Shown piece by piece: positions 47,254-59,008 of a stretch of DNA of 60,983 nucleotides (the first letter of the stretch is position 1; every line of letters starts with the position of its first letter). The notes under the pieces were generated by a model. It searched no databases, was not told where the DNA came from, and was given only the letters and a program-made list of their open reading frames with translations. Source of the stretch: Candidatus Omnitrophota bacterium (GTDB taxonomy: Bacteria; Omnitrophota; Gorgyraeia; Zapsychrales; Zapsychraceae); the NCBI GenBank assembly GCA_015233115.1, contig JADFYJ010000016.1, forward strand, positions 499 through 61,481, read 5' to 3'. A program made the position numbers and the translations under genes.

Positions 47254-47721
47254 TTAAAAATTAAAATGTCCTTGCGGATGTTCTTTTTTGATTTCCTCTT
47301 TAATAATTTTAATAAATTCACAAGCTGATTCTAAAGCGCTTTTCGCGTCAGTCATAGAAACATGAAACTTCCAAGGCTCATAAATAAAATTATTACGGTT
47401 TTTACGCATATAATCAAACTTCTCAGTCAACGCTTTATATCTATTCCCTAAAAAGTAGGACGCAAAACTAACAACTGTTTTATGCTGGAAATTAGTTGTA
47501 GGCCGAAAACCTTTCACAAACACAAAGGCCCTTGCCGCATGAAGCATCGCGGTATAAGCCGTTTCGTAAGCATGCCCTTCATCAATCGAAAGCAATTTTT
47601 CTGAAACCTGAAGATTTTTTTCAGCGCTGTTCATGACTTTCTCTATCTGATCAAAGCCTATCTTCTCCGGCTTTATCAGATTCTTTTCTGTATATTCATT
47701 TAAAAATTCTTTAGAGGTCAT
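47254..47721 (-). CDS. HEPN-domain protein, partner of the nucleotidyltransferase
   Basis: 155 residues. The helical HEPN pattern is visible: AYETAYTAMLHAARAFVFVK near 51, then KALTEKFDYMRKNRNNFIYE near 95-115. The usual RX4-6H ribonuclease motif appears as RNNFIYEPW, with Tyr where His is expected, so RNase activity may be lost. It overlaps the end of the nucleotidyltransferase gene by 11 bases. MNT-HEPN pairs act as toxin-antitoxin modules in which the nucleotidyltransferase modifies the HEPN toxin. Confidence 0.82.
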   Translation of the reverse strand: MTSKEFLNEYTEKNLIKPEKIGFDQIEKVMNSAEKNLQVSEKLLSIDEGHAYETAYTAMLHAARAFVFVKGFRPTTNFQHKTVVSFASYFLGNRYKALTEKFDYMRKNRNNFIYEPWKFHVSMTDAKSALESACEFIKIIKEEIKKEHPQGHFNF

Positions 47722-48283
47722 CTTTGCTTCCTTTAATAAATATTTTCTTGCCCTTTATGACCTCTAAAACAAAAGAATTTTTTTTCTTTTTCTCTTTTTG
47801 ATACTCGCCATTTGTATAACGGGTATAATTAATTTCTTTAAACAATTTTTTCTCAAGATTACTAATATTGATCACCAACTTATCTTCATCAATGTCATCG
47901 CCGATCAAAAATATATCTATATCGCTATCCTGCCGCTCTTCCCCCTTAGCAAAAGACCCGTATATAAAAGCAGCCTTGACTCCGTTTATCTTAATTAAAC
48001 AGTCTTGTACCAGTTTTATCACGCCTGCTGTTTTATAAACGATATTTTTTAATTCTTCATAAACCGGATTTTGCTTATTCAAATAAAAAAGCTTAATGTT
48101 GCCAACCTCCCGCACATTAAGGATCCCTAAAAAAATAAGTTTCTTAATCTCCCGATGCAGAGTCCCTACAGACATTTTGTGCATCGACGCCAGTTGTCTT
48201 GTGTAGTACTCATTTCCCGGATTGCTAAAAAAAGTATTTAATAAAACTTGCCGCGTTTTTGATCCTAATAGACCAGACAACAT
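47711..48283 (-). CDS. Winged-helix nucleotidyltransferase (MNT type), antitoxin-like
   Basis: 190 residues. The N-terminal winged helix (about 1-75) has EYYTRQLASMHKMSVGTLHR and EIKKLIFLGILNVREVGNIK. The nucleotidyltransferase core has AFIYGSFAKGEERQDSDIDI near 104-123, the GSx10DxD motif. MNT proteins AMPylate HEPN partners. The fused DNA-binding domain would let it bind its own promoter, where tandem repeats lie. It sits between murG and the metallopeptidase-murC genes. Confidence 0.87.
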   Translation of the reverse strand: MLSGLLGSKTRQVLLNTFFSNPGNEYYTRQLASMHKMSVGTLHREIKKLIFLGILNVREVGNIKLFYLNKQNPVYEELKNIVYKTAGVIKLVQDCLIKINGVKAAFIYGSFAKGEERQDSDIDIFLIGDDIDEDKLVINISNLEKKLFKEINYTRYTNGEYQKEKKKKNSFVLEVIKGKKIFIKGSKDDL

Positions 48284-54781: not shown

Positions 54782-55678
54782 TCATTTTCCACTTTTCCAC
54801 AATGGCGACTCTTTCCAGTTATTTAAAAATCCCATAACCTCATAAAAGTTAGGAATAGCAACAGGTTGACTTAATAATGAATTCACCTCAAAATGCCACT
54901 CATCCCTAATCCGTTGTTCTATAGGTAATTTGGATAAAAAATTGTTAACCGCGAAAACAACTGACCCCACACGCTTTGTATTTATATCATGCCACCCATC
55001 ATGTTTAGGAACAACCATAGCAATGGCTAGTTCCCTATTCCATATTCTGCTATGATGCGCGCAAATATTACGGATATAAGTAAAAGTATGAAGCCACGAG
55101 GATACAACGGTAGAATGGTACCCGATAATTTGAGCTAAAGCGATCTGATCATCCCGAAGCAGATTGTGGTAAAGCTGAGATAAAGACCCAAACGACATAA
55201 CTTCAACGGCCATCCATAAAGGCAAATGCGGAAATTCTTCATATTTATTCTTATAATGATCAATAAATGTTTCTTTCGACCGGACAGTCTCGTCATGAAT
55301 CTTGGTAATCCATTCCGCGTGCTTGGATTTATCAAAAAAAATTTTAGCGTCCTCGTGAACAAAAGCCCCATATTTACGCGCCAAATAATACGAAATAGTC
55401 GAACGCACAGAAATTTCAATAACTTCGAGAGCTTCGTCAATCAAAAAACGTAACCGGCGATCAAATTCGTAAAGTTGTTGTATTCGTTCAAATGTAACGC
55501 CAGAATGGAATTGGTGACGTTTCAATTCAAAAGGCAGACAATACGCGCTGAAACGATAATAACTAACCTGACTCAAAAATTTCTCAGACTTTGACGGATT
55601 GGCAATTATAAGGCCGCGGCTGGCAAGTAGATTTATTTGTTTATCATACGAAAGAGGGGGCTTGTTATATTTTTCCAT
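54782..55678 (-). CDS. Abi_2 (AbiD/AbiF) family abortive-infection protein
   Basis: 298 residues. The N-terminus has the family pattern PLSYDKQINLLASRGLII and YYRFSAYCLPFE near 45. QLYEFDRRLRFLIDEALEVI near 85 and VRSTISYYLARKYG near 110 follow. The HEPN ribonuclease motif RX4H is in FTYIRNICAHHSRIWNREL near 205. Proteins of this family block phage growth and probably cut RNA. It interrupts murE-murF. The start has an AAGGGAG ribosome-binding site. A structured RNA lies just upstream, resembling the noncoding RNAs reported with AbiF proteins. Confidence 0.92.
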   Translation of the reverse strand: MEKYNKPPLSYDKQINLLASRGLIIANPSKSEKFLSQVSYYRFSAYCLPFELKRHQFHSGVTFERIQQLYEFDRRLRFLIDEALEVIEISVRSTISYYLARKYGAFVHEDAKIFFDKSKHAEWITKIHDETVRSKETFIDHYKNKYEEFPHLPLWMAVEVMSFGSLSQLYHNLLRDDQIALAQIIGYHSTVVSSWLHTFTYIRNICAHHSRIWNRELAIAMVVPKHDGWHDINTKRVGSVVFAVNNFLSKLPIEQRIRDEWHFEVNSLLSQPVAIPNFYEVMGFLNNWKESPLWKSGK

Positions 55679-55691
55679 AACACTCCCTTAA

Positions 55692-55749
55692 GAAAAGAAA
55701 AACCCGCCCAAAATGCGCACTAAGCCGAAGCTCAGGAGGCGTGGCGGGT
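55692..55749 (-). terminator. Rho-independent terminator between ncRNA and Abi gene
   Basis: The 7-bp ACCCGCC/GGCGGGT stem closes the RNA structure and is followed by TTTTTCTTTTCTT on the transcript. Transcripts from both the RNA promoter and the upstream cell-wall operon must pass it to reach Abi and murF. Confidence 0.75.
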
Positions 55750-55754
55750 ATGTT
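55692..55754 (-). ncRNA. Structured RNA upstream of the Abi gene, ending in a terminator
   Basis: About 63 nt on the minus strand, from a predicted start near 55754 to the U-tract ending near 55692. Outer stem ACCCGCC (55743-55749) with GGCGGGT (55702-55708); inner stem CTGAGC (55730-55735) with GCTTAG (55720-55725), capped by a TTCG tetraloop. Unpaired GCGCAT and ACGCCTC segments could form a further tertiary contact. The GC-rich outer stem is followed by TTTTTCTTTT, a rho-independent terminator, and 14 bases later by the Abi ATG. This fits an RNA antitoxin or regulator of the Abi protein (inference). Confidence 0.75.
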
Positions 55755-55760
55755 GATCAT

Positions 55761-55789
55761 AATATACCCGATCTTGTTAAAGAAGGCAA
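55761..55789 (-). promoter_or_regulatory. Promoter of the Abi-associated RNA
   Basis: -35 TTGCCT at 55784-55789 and -10 TATATT at 55761-55766 with an exact 17-base spacer. Transcription would begin about 55754, only five bases from the outer stem of the RNA. It lies in the 128-base gap between murE and the Abi gene. Confidence 0.7.
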
Positions 55790-55806
55790 CCTCTTTTATT
55801 TTTCTT

Positions 55807-57264
55807 TTAACCATTTTTCAGAATTTCCCTTACGACCAACCGTTCATCATAATCAATCGTCTTATCTCTAAATATCTGATACGTTTCATGACCTTTGCCG
55901 GCCAAGAGAACAATATCCCCCTTTTTCGCTGACCCTAAAGCTTTTCGTATCGCTTCAGTACGATCAACTTCAATCATAAAATTTTCTTTCGCAAAACCTT
56001 TCACCACTTCATCAATAATTTGCCGTGGTTCTTCACTGCGCGGATTATCTGAAGTCACAACACAAATATCCGCCAATTCTCCGGCGATTTTTGCCATTTT
56101 AGGGCGTTTGATTTTATCCCGGTCTCCGCCGCAGCCAAAAACCAGAATAATTTTTCCATGAGGTAAACGGCGGACGGATTCCAGCACATTTTTTAACGCG
56201 TCGTCCGTGTGAGCGTAATCAATAAAAATCAAATAATCTGTCCCGCATTCTACCTTTTCCAGCCGGCCCTTAACCAGATCACATTTCAAAATACCCTGCT
56301 GTATAAATTTTGGATCAATATTTTCATTGAGCGCGGCTGACGCGGCTGCCAGAATATTATAAATATTATGTTTCCCAATTAAACGTGTTTCAAGCGGAAA
56401 AGTCCCTCGAGAATGAGCAAGATTAAACTTGGATCCGGACGCGTCCATTTGAATATCAACCGCCATCACTTCCGCCTTATGATCAATGGCATATCCCATA
56501 ACTTTGGCTTGAGTCATACGGCCTAACCGTTCGCCCATCTTATCATCCATATTAATAACCGCGAATGATTTGGGGTGCAAGTGTGTAAAGAGCTTTGATT
56601 TTGCCAAAAAATATTCTTCTTCCGTCTTGTGATAATCCATATGATCCTGCGTCAAATTCGTAAACAACGCTTGACGAAAATCGATCAGATCGACGCGTCC
56701 TTGGGCCAATCCATGAGACGAAACTTCCATGGCGCAATATTTCATCCTGTGATCGCGCATGAGAGCAACATATTTTTGAATATCCACCAGCCCCGGTGTA
56801 GTATTTTTTGCCTCAATCACATCATCGCCGATCACATGCTGAATCGTCCCCATAATCCCACAAGGCTGTCCTGCTTCCTGAAAAATTGACCGCAATAAAT
56901 ATGTGATGGTCGTTTTGCCATTGGTTCCGGTAATCCCTAAACAGCACACTTGGCCTGACGGATGGCCGTAAAATCTGTCTACAGCCTGGCGCAAAATTTG
57001 CCCGGGATTTGACACATGAACATACAAAATGCCGTCTTCAACCCGATACCCGGCAATCCCATTCTGAACCACAGTTTTGGCGCCGCGGAGCACCGCATCT
57101 TTAATAAATTGTTCCCCGTTCTTCACGCTCCCTTCCACCGCAAAAAATAAACAATCCGTCTCTGCCAGCCGCGAATCACAGACCACCACAGAAATTTCCC
57201 GCGCCCCCAAATCATGAGGCAATTGACAGGTAATTTCTGCTGGTAATATTTTTTTTAATTTCAT
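55807..57264 (-). CDS. murE: UDP-N-acetylmuramoyl-tripeptide synthetase, meso-DAP type
   Basis: 485 residues from the ATG at 57264; an upstream ATG at 57288 lies inside ftsI. CLGITGTNGKTTITYLLRSI near 105 is the ATP loop, ALFTNLTQDHMDYHKTEEEY near 205 the carbamylated-lysine region, and VVTSDNPRSEEPRQIIDEVV near 400 carries DNPR, which selects meso-diaminopimelate rather than lysine. It supports a Gram-negative-type wall. Downstream the operon is interrupted by the RNA-Abi module. Confidence 0.96.
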   Translation of the reverse strand: MKLKKILPAEITCQLPHDLGAREISVVVCDSRLAETDCLFFAVEGSVKNGEQFIKDAVLRGAKTVVQNGIAGYRVEDGILYVHVSNPGQILRQAVDRFYGHPSGQVCCLGITGTNGKTTITYLLRSIFQEAGQPCGIMGTIQHVIGDDVIEAKNTTPGLVDIQKYVALMRDHRMKYCAMEVSSHGLAQGRVDLIDFRQALFTNLTQDHMDYHKTEEEYFLAKSKLFTHLHPKSFAVINMDDKMGERLGRMTQAKVMGYAIDHKAEVMAVDIQMDASGSKFNLAHSRGTFPLETRLIGKHNIYNILAAASAALNENIDPKFIQQGILKCDLVKGRLEKVECGTDYLIFIDYAHTDDALKNVLESVRRLPHGKIILVFGCGGDRDKIKRPKMAKIAGELADICVVTSDNPRSEEPRQIIDEVVKGFAKENFMIEVDRTEAIRKALGSAKKGDIVLLAGKGHETYQIFRDKTIDYDERLVVREILKNG

Positions 57265-57265
57265 G

Positions 57266-59008
57266 TTAATCTTTAAATTTTGGTTCATTTTTCGTTTCGT
57301 CCGGGCTTGTGGCGATTACTTTACCTTGCCATTCGCCCTTCGCCTGCAAATATCTTAATGAATCTTCGACTATTCTTTGAAATACTGGCGCGCTGACTGT
57401 ACCGCCGTAATAACTCGGATGCGGCTCATCATATACCACAATGCAGGCCAAAAGCGGGTTATCCGCCGGGGCAAAACCCATAAACGTCGCATAAAATTTA
57501 CTGTGCGTATACTGGCCGTTTTCTACTTTTTGAGCGGTTCCAGTTTTTCCAGCAACTCGAATACCTTTGATCTTCGCTTTTGTCGCAGTACCACGCTCCA
57601 CAACTCCGACCAAAATTTCCGTCATCCGGCGGGCAATATCCACGCCGATCACGCGCTCTTCCGCTTGCGGTTCAAATGATTTAATAACTTTATTGTCCGC
57701 ATCCCGTATAGCCTTGACGACGAACGGTTTCATATAAACACCATCATTTCCTATTGAAGCGATTGCGGATACCAATTGCAAAGGCGTCACAGTGACTTCT
57801 TGCCCAATCGGGATCGCGCCTATAGAAGTTTTAGACCATAAACGGGGCGGCTTCACCATCCCGCGTACCTCCCCTTTTAGATCGATTCCCGTCGCTCTCC
57901 CAAACCGGAATTTCTGTATATATTCATAAACTTTATCTGGTCCGACCTTTTGAGCAATCTTGGTGACACCAATGTTGCTGGACACTTCAATGACTTGTTG
58001 AAAAGTTATAATTCCCGACGGGTGATGATCATGCAAAATGTGATTCCCTACTTTGTACTGACCATTTTCACAATTTATTTTATCCGTTTCCGTGAACACT
58101 CCTTCAGACAAGGCCGCTGACGCGGTTACGATTTTAAAAACCGAGCCTGGTTCATACGTAAAACTGATCGCCCGATCCGTCCGGCTGGCTACGTCGCTTT
58201 GGGCATACGCGGAAAGGTCATAAGTCGGCCGGTTGGCTAATGCCAGAATTTCTCCGGTTCTCACATTCATCACAATAGCTGATCCGCCTTTGGCATTGTT
58301 TTTGCGATAACCTTCTTCCAAGGCTTTTTCAGCAATATATTGGATTGTCTCGTCGATGGTTAACTCAATGGAATTTCCATTTTTAGGCACTAAATATTCA
58401 TCGTCAATCTGCAGTTCTCTCAAACGGGCATCCCGCAAAACATTCATCCAGCCCGCAGTCCCTTTCAACTCATTGTTAAATTGTAATTCCACCCCTTCCA
58501 TCCCCTGGTTATCCACACTCGCAAAGCCAAGGATGTGAGACGCTAAATACGCGTTAGGATAAAACCGTTTCGATTCTTTTCGAAATCCGATGCCATGGAT
58601 TTTAAGCGCTTTAATCTTTTCTGTTACATCCCAATCCATCTTCCGTTTTAACCATATAAAATAACGGCTCTTGGCTAAATGATCATCGATGTATTCTGTC
58701 GACTCACCCATCAAACCCGGAAGCTCTGCCCTGGCCCGGACTTTATCAGCTTCTTTCATCTGCCGGGTATTGGCGAAGACGGAATAAACAGTCGTATTGA
58801 ATGCTAAGGGACGGAGATTTCGATCATAAACAGTGCCGCGGATAGGCTCCAAATCAACCATATGACGCTGTTGCCGGTCAGCCATTTCCGTAAGGTAAGA
58901 TGAACTAAAAGCATAGAGGAGAATGAGGCGGATGGCAAAATAAATGAACAGGCTGATTAAGCCTAAGAAAATAACGCCAAACCTTATGACATATCTTTGA
59001 TTATGCAC
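57266..59008 (-). CDS. ftsI: Penicillin-binding protein, FtsI-type transpeptidase
   Basis: 580 residues, from a GTG at 59008. One N-terminal membrane helix (FGVIFLGLISLFIYFAIRLI) and a dimerisation domain (RGTVYDRNLRPLAFNTTVY near 54) precede the transpeptidase with SxxK in YEPGSVFKIVTASAAL near 290, SxN in VIEVSSNIGVTKIAQ near 342 and KTGT in VAGKTGTAQKVENGQ near 485. It crosslinks septal peptidoglycan with FtsW. No PASTA domains. Confidence 0.96.
   Translation of the reverse strand: MHNQRYVIRFGVIFLGLISLFIYFAIRLILLYAFSSSYLTEMADRQQRHMVDLEPIRGTVYDRNLRPLAFNTTVYSVFANTRQMKEADKVRARAELPGLMGESTEYIDDHLAKSRYFIWLKRKMDWDVTEKIKALKIHGIGFRKESKRFYPNAYLASHILGFASVDNQGMEGVELQFNNELKGTAGWMNVLRDARLRELQIDDEYLVPKNGNSIELTIDETIQYIAEKALEEGYRKNNAKGGSAIVMNVRTGEILALANRPTYDLSAYAQSDVASRTDRAISFTYEPGSVFKIVTASAALSEGVFTETDKINCENGQYKVGNHILHDHHPSGIITFQQVIEVSSNIGVTKIAQKVGPDKVYEYIQKFRFGRATGIDLKGEVRGMVKPPRLWSKTSIGAIPIGQEVTVTPLQLVSAIASIGNDGVYMKPFVVKAIRDADNKVIKSFEPQAEERVIGVDIARRMTEILVGVVERGTATKAKIKGIRVAGKTGTAQKVENGQYTHSKFYATFMGFAPADNPLLACIVVYDEPHPSYYGGTVSAPVFQRIVEDSLRYLQAKGEWQGKVIATSPDETKNEPKFKD

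Follow-up and report, generated by a model that had tools for sequence, protein, structure and literature searches.

A divergent abiF RNA with its AbiF protein between murE and murF of an Omnitrophota bacterium: a probable type III-like toxin–antitoxin unit

Introduction

AbiF systems are experimentally proven type III-like toxin–antitoxin pairs (PMC12373285, PMC12737573). In C. difficile, AbiFCd is toxic and its R202/H207 mutants are non-toxic; the RNA RCd22 neutralises the protein in cis and in trans through direct binding and, in cis, also brings down the amount of abiF transcript (PMC12373285). Mutations which break the stems of RCd22 abolish neutralisation, whereas those which keep the stems preserve it (PMC12373285). 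PbAbiF cleaves single-stranded RNA and is inhibited by bulge nucleotides of its RNA, AbiFr (PMC12737573). The PbAbiF–AbiFr structure 8VZ6 is cited here as Zilberzwige-Tal et al. 2025 (through PMC12737573 and PMC12373285), and the abiF RNA motif is credited to Weinberg et al. 2017 in PMC12373285.

Here we describe a locus of this kind in a bacterium of the little-studied phylum Candidatus Omnitrophota (GenBank assembly GCA_015233115.1, contig JADFYJ010000016.1); the whole stretch of 60,983 nt that was analysed is referred to as the window. A first-pass annotation had proposed an RNA-antitoxin/protein-toxin architecture of a class that "may be known". The architecture is upheld: the parts stand in the same order as in the characterised AbiF relatives, the RNA pairing is conserved and the RNA aligns with the Rfam abiF RNA family. 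The class, however, is firmly known, and the kind of system is experimentally established. The RNA subgroup lies below Rfam detection, and the location in the dcw cluster is unusual.

Results

The gap between murE (55807–57288) and the Abi gene (54782–55678) holds the promoter and the RNA on the minus strand, and all the elements named by the first-pass annotation were present there with unchanged coordinates. The features are as follows:

54782–55810, minus strand: mobile cassette (promoter, RNA, toxin) of ~1.03 kb, delimited by how far DNA homology to the other copies reaches; inserted at the murE/murF junction
55784–55789, minus strand: −35-like hexamer TTGCCT (TTGCAT in the closest homologues; TTGC kept in loci L003, L014 and L004)
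55761–55766, minus strand: −10 box TATATT, 11 nt 5′ of the RNA stem
55692–55754, minus strand: divergent abiF RNA (putative antitoxin), 63 nt; covariance model R1 matches 55754–55694 with 89.1 bits, RF03085 matches 55748–55702 with 21.4 bits
55743–55749, minus strand: outer stem 5′ arm ACCCGCC (covariation; 100% of cells paired in the alignment of the seven closest loci)
55739–55741, minus strand: 5′ arm CGC of the inner 3-bp helix (first pair C-G, A-U or G-C across the family)
55720–55735, minus strand: apical hairpin CTGAGC-TTCG-GCTTAG (double changes at all six pairs in homologues)
55716–55718, minus strand: inner helix 3′ arm GCG (structural alignment and covariation)
55709–55715, minus strand: single-stranded linker CAUUUUG (specific to the subgroup; standard abiF RNAs read CAAAU)
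55702–55708, minus strand: outer stem 3′ arm GGCGGGT, leading into the U-tract (covariation)
about 55690–55702, minus strand: U-rich tract (read from the sequence)
55683–55689, minus strand: ribosome-binding site AAGGGAG (read from the sequence)
54782–55678, minus strand: predicted AbiF/Abi_2 HEPN ribonuclease toxin, 298 aa (Pfam Abi_2, match to 8vz6, motif R203-N-I-C-A-H208)

The proposed promoter TTGCCT-17-TATATT was found with both hexamers and the 17-nt spacer (55789–55784 to 55766–55761). A consensus scan of the region returned 36 promoter sites versus 30.7 expected, so that the window promoter is not significant by consensus alone, and it was therefore weighed by its conservation. A −10-like hexamer ends 10–13 nt 5′ of the stem in 17 of the 22 abiF-RNA loci, compared with a mean of 1.7 and a maximum of 6 in shuffles. 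It follows from this conserved position that the RNA would start at about 55754.

The expected RNA of about 63 nt was located in full, with its outer stem, apical hairpin and U-tract. The outer stem running into the U-tract has the form of an intrinsic terminator, and the same arrangement is seen in nearly all homologous loci. Because a simple terminator scan admits only loops of 3–8 nt, the compound stem was absent from its output, and the predicted termination is judged from the GC stem, the U-tract and homology. The GC stem and U-tract, which are present and conserved, would place a terminator between RNA and toxin on a shared transcript. The abiF start codon ATG at 55678, found behind AAGGGAG as annotated, lies 24 nt past the RNA stem and 12–14 nt past the end of the U-tract. 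An 11-pair inverted repeat CGGGTATatt...AACATACCCG (55745–55770), which takes in the −10 box together with the stem's 5′ arm, was considered as an anti-terminator letting murE transcripts through and rejected for now: the 128-nt read-through RNA keeps the abiF stem in both the MFE and centroid folds, and among the homologous loci the repeat was found only in L003 and partly in L005.

A third helix, CGC 55741–55739 with GCG 55718–55716, had been overlooked in the first-pass annotation and is the most diagnostic part of the RNA. The MFE of the 63-nt RNA is −22.3 kcal/mol (z = −3.1), and a single one of 200 dinucleotide shuffles was equally stable. The covariance-model search against Rfam that had been suggested as a check aligned the RNA (cmscan) with RF03085, the abiF RNA, end to end (model positions 1–37), although the score stayed below the gathering threshold of 37; the other loci of the subgroup with a listed match to RF03085 scored 22.8–28.3 bits. 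The window RNA has the consensus structure of this family together with its GCCUC / GCxCA sequence, and it lies at the expected place just upstream of the abiF gene. Judged by these sequence features, the RNA at 55754–55692 (minus strand) is a divergent abiF RNA. It shares with RF03085 an outer stem of 6–7 bp, the GCCUC segment, the inner xGC/GCx helix, CA in the 3′ linker, the U-tract and the position directly upstream of abiF. The apical arm of the window RNA, in contrast, is 10 nt longer and carries a 6-bp hairpin, the inner pair is C-G instead of A-U, and the linker is CAUUUU instead of CAAAU. No second abiF RNA or Abi_2 gene was found elsewhere in the genome. An Rfam CRISPR-DR2 match inside abiF (18.4 bits, E 3.7) was dismissed as chance.

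Homologous loci were gathered from GTDB contigs and 384 Omnitrophota genomes, and the same RNA was present in the stretch upstream of the homologous abiF genes. The first-pass annotation had made its proposal depend on conserved pairing in such loci, and this pairing was found. When the seven closest loci were aligned by MAFFT without structure, 99.1% of the pair cells were standard and 9 of the 16 pairs had changes on both sides, which none of 500 shuffles equalled; sliding the partner strand reduced pairing to at most 41%. A structural alignment of 19 loci, standard and divergent members together, had 189 of 190 stem cells paired, a count somewhat favoured by the picking of the 3′ arm for complementarity; column shuffles gave 159 ± 3 (maximum 169). 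Across these loci, position 5 of the outer stem carries G-C, C-G, A-U or G-U, and A-U, C-G and G-C all occur as the first pair of the inner helix. The R1 model, built from the seven closest loci, recovered loci outside its building set (L058, L060–L064) at 46–79 bits. Double changes occur in 14 of 16 pairs among 28 matches fitted to R1, an alignment which leans to structure by construction.

The window RNA and those of L003, L014, L004, L016, L005 and L006 form a subgroup with CGC...GCG, the CAUUUU linker and an extended apical arm, mostly a 6-bp hairpin capped by a tetraloop. L017, L007, L009, L010 and L022 have AGC...GCUCAAAU instead, and L018 and L019 have CGC...GCGAAAU. The AbiF proteins that accompany the subgroup RNAs are no less than 48% identical to that of the window, whereas those encoded beside the other RNA types reach at most 42%. 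In Omnitrophota and Margulisbacteria, this RNA subgroup missed by Rfam thus travels with an AbiF subgroup of its own. RF03085 finds 4 of 285 genomes of the phylum, two of them over the cut-off, and R1 finds 19 of 384, about 15 of which are credible; the weak R1 matches in genomes G259, G310, G071 and G123 (24–28 bits) were treated as chance. Rfam's abiF model consequently overlooks a whole RNA subgroup. Since the inner base pair and the linker change together with the protein lineage, these loci represent natural swap experiments. In L003, tandem abiF motifs of two subgroups (57–117 and 124–179), window-type followed by L018-type, precede an AbiF gene that contains a TAG in frame.

The protein encoded downstream matches Pfam Abi_2 (PF07751) with 186.9 bits, compared with a curated cut-off of 25.6, over the whole profile (1–184/184); PADLOC called it AbiD. 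By sequence it matches 8vz6, the PbAbiF dimer bound to its ncRNA, with E 8.9e-41, and its structure model (pLDDT 88) matches the same entry with a TM of 0.85 over 304 columns. This is the only significant fold match and the only strong PDB relative by sequence. On both its sequence and its modelled fold, the downstream protein is an AbiF. The first-pass annotation had noted that the RX4H motif is retained; indeed, R203-NICA-H208 (RX4-6H HEPN motif) aligns with the same motif in 8vz6 and R203-x4-H208 is kept in 12 of 12 homologues. R203, N204, C206, A207, H208, H209, R211, W213 and R215 are invariant in these homologues, and all are kept in the window AbiF, which is a full-length open frame. 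With 298 aa and one HEPN domain, it lacks the two HEPN domains per chain by which Cas13 is recognised, and neither a CRISPR array nor a second RNA copy was seen at the window locus. A 159-residue phage protein, gp79 (PDB 9zd7 chain G), matches the active-site segment of AbiF weakly (RGIRGHHTRVFNRDL; E 0.13) and is perhaps a small relative of the motif.

The likeness to the named systems varies. The window protein is homologous over its full length to PbAbiF of 8VZ6, with the same RX4H site and an RNA, here a putative antitoxin, encoded beside it; the protein identity is ~30%, the host and RNA subgroup differ, and the likeness is judged on the protein. The AbiFCd–RCd22 locus of prophage phi027 in C. 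difficile has a sigma-A-type promoter, RNA, terminator and abiF in the same order and an RX4H protein. There, abiF shares one transcript with the RNA, as is predicted for the window. Two abiF motifs and a separate terminator are found there, in contrast to the one motif of the window that doubles as a terminator-like stem. That pair lies in a prophage lysis module, whereas the window unit lies in the chromosomal dcw cluster; the window AbiF is ~33% identical to the phage copies. In the type III systems ToxIN, CptIN and TenpIN, a short or processed RNA binds an RNase toxin directly and so neutralises it, as would be the case here by analogy. Their toxin fold and RNAs are unrelated to those of the window, which has a HEPN/AbiF toxin rather than the ToxN fold and a single stem-loop motif rather than tandem pseudoknot repeats.

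In genome G357 of the same genus, murE shares a few bases with murF, and most of the examined members of the family show such an overlap (gap −7 or −8), whereas 1.07 kb separates the two genes in the window. The DNA homology to L003, L014 and L004 spans ~55810 to 54782 and stops at both ends, the L003 contig itself ending at the upstream border. The L003 copy adjoins a type III restriction system and the L014 copy a helix-turn-helix gene and an ATPase; elsewhere the neighbours are unrelated genes. AbiF is far more similar than MurF to the counterpart in the same genome: 87 versus 36% identity for G274, 73 versus 41% for G373, 71 versus 40% for G152 and 56 versus 45% for G308, and the closest copy (87%) belongs to another family. 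The GC content is 38.2% in abiF and 43.3–43.7% in murE and murF. Given the homology borders, the empty site in relatives, the identity of AbiF and its lower GC, the sequence comparisons indicate that the cassette is a recent horizontal insertion exactly at the murE/murF junction, which broke their overlap. No close relative was found in viral contigs, and the AbiF copies of phages and plasmids are all less than 60% identical, so that none of them points to a vector.

All 12 intact aligned AbiF genes have the RNA directly upstream, and the sole AbiF fragment without the RNA, L020, is itself truncated. The RNA is intact where the toxin is interrupted by TAG (L003 in G274), cut short (G303 and G047) or reduced to a remnant (one copy in G187). 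In eight genomes (G131, G114, G218, G032, G223, G327, G217 and G163) the RNA occurs without an Abi_2 match in the assembly, single absences being weak evidence in incomplete assemblies. Such asymmetric decay, with the toxin broken and the RNA kept, is what an antitoxin predicts, because the toxin can be lost safely and the RNA cannot go first.

At L058 (G131), L060 (G114), L062 (G032), L063 (G223), L064 (G327), L022 (G217) and L067 (G163), an abiF RNA whose stems are intact stands free, lacking an AbiF gene. L022 is located after an AbiEi-like antitoxin gene, and at L067 the toxin is down to the start codon and a few codons ahead of a GmrSD restriction gene. At L061/L023 1501–2775 in G218, a genome without any Abi_2 gene, an abiF-type RNA with a good −10 box lies ~50 nt ahead of an AAA_21 ATPase gene, which together with its partner matches PADLOC HEC-01 (681 bits).

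Discussion

Conserved RNA structure, promoter position, protein family, fold and catalytic motif, cassette borders, the empty site and horizontal transfer were all observed here. The window locus is very probably an AbiF RNA–protein toxin–antitoxin unit of the type III-like kind, its antitoxin mechanism being deduced from homology. Transcription, termination, read-through, binding, toxicity, neutralisation and phage defence would proceed here by analogy with the relatives. The small RNA would be transcribed from its own promoter and would usually end at its own stem and U-tract, and AbiF would be translated only from the minority of transcripts reading through the stem. The RNA would bind the dimer of the HEPN ribonuclease and hold it inactive. 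Should the RNA decay faster than the protein, or should phage infection or cassette loss displace or degrade it, AbiF would be freed, cut single-stranded RNA and arrest the cell, providing addiction and abortive defence. The cassette itself was acquired horizontally and came to lie in the dcw cluster, between murE and murF. Points against this reading are the RF03085 score under the curated cut-off and the single RNA motif, where the RNA of C. difficile has two. Moreover, the linker, a segment which may contact the active site, reads CAUUUU in the window and not CAAAU, so there is no guarantee that the RNA inhibits through the contacts used in relatives.

Since AbiF has been proposed as the ancestor of Cas13, a CRISPR enzyme, the range of RNAs it accepts bears on the transition from antitoxin RNA to CRISPR guide.

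We consider it unlikely that the RNA acts mainly in cis, as a leader or terminator (attenuator) of abiF, with no antitoxin role in trans at this locus. That reading would account for the U-tract just ahead of the abiF start codon, for several free-standing copies which follow an upstream gene stop without a promoter like a plain terminator (L062, L064), and for the parallel with the C. difficile RNA, which also reduces abiF transcript levels in cis (PMC12373285). A terminator, however, requires neither GCCUC nor the inner helix nor the linker CA, all of which are also conserved; the RNA has its own conserved promoter, and in relatives it acts in trans and binds the protein. Slightly less probable still is a decayed or domesticated unit, in which AbiF would have no activity or would do some other job in the cell-wall operon. 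Broken copies of AbiF occur frequently across the phylum, but the frame in the window is full-length with complete invariant residues, the RNA, promoter and ribosome-binding site are intact, and the insertion is recent, as seen from the AbiF identity to a copy in another family. A chance hairpin beside an Abi_2 gene would agree with the simple promoter and terminator scans of the region, which were not enriched over shuffles; its probability is negligible, as it is refuted by covariation across 7, 19 and 28 sequences, and the Rfam alignment and the conserved placement also speak against it.

The toxin–antitoxin unit lies inside an essential operon, which raises the question of how murF is still transcribed past an antitoxin resembling an intrinsic terminator; the genes needing transcription past the stem are murF-mraY-murD-ftsW. 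Transcripts of murE may also cross the RNA and the toxin, so the earlier view, in which the toxin comes solely from transcripts that start at the RNA promoter and read through, may not be the full picture. For the free-standing toxin-less abiF RNAs in Omnitrophota, it is conceivable, though rather doubtful, that selection keeps them beside other defence genes, either for protection in trans against incoming AbiF elements or for re-use in regulating another defence system; most of these RNAs would stem from the subgroup of the window.

A second toxin–antitoxin-like pair is present in the same dcw cluster (47254–48283, minus strand), between murG and the Peptidase_MA/murC genes. It consists of a winged-helix nucleotidyltransferase (GSFAKGEERQDSDIDIF) and a HEPN protein (RNNFIY) and matches the PADLOC candidate PDC-M05A/B. 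The dcw clusters of G357, G245, G128 and G195, syntenic in other respects, lack the pair; G357 has a short DUF559-like ORF, recognised by eye, at this site.
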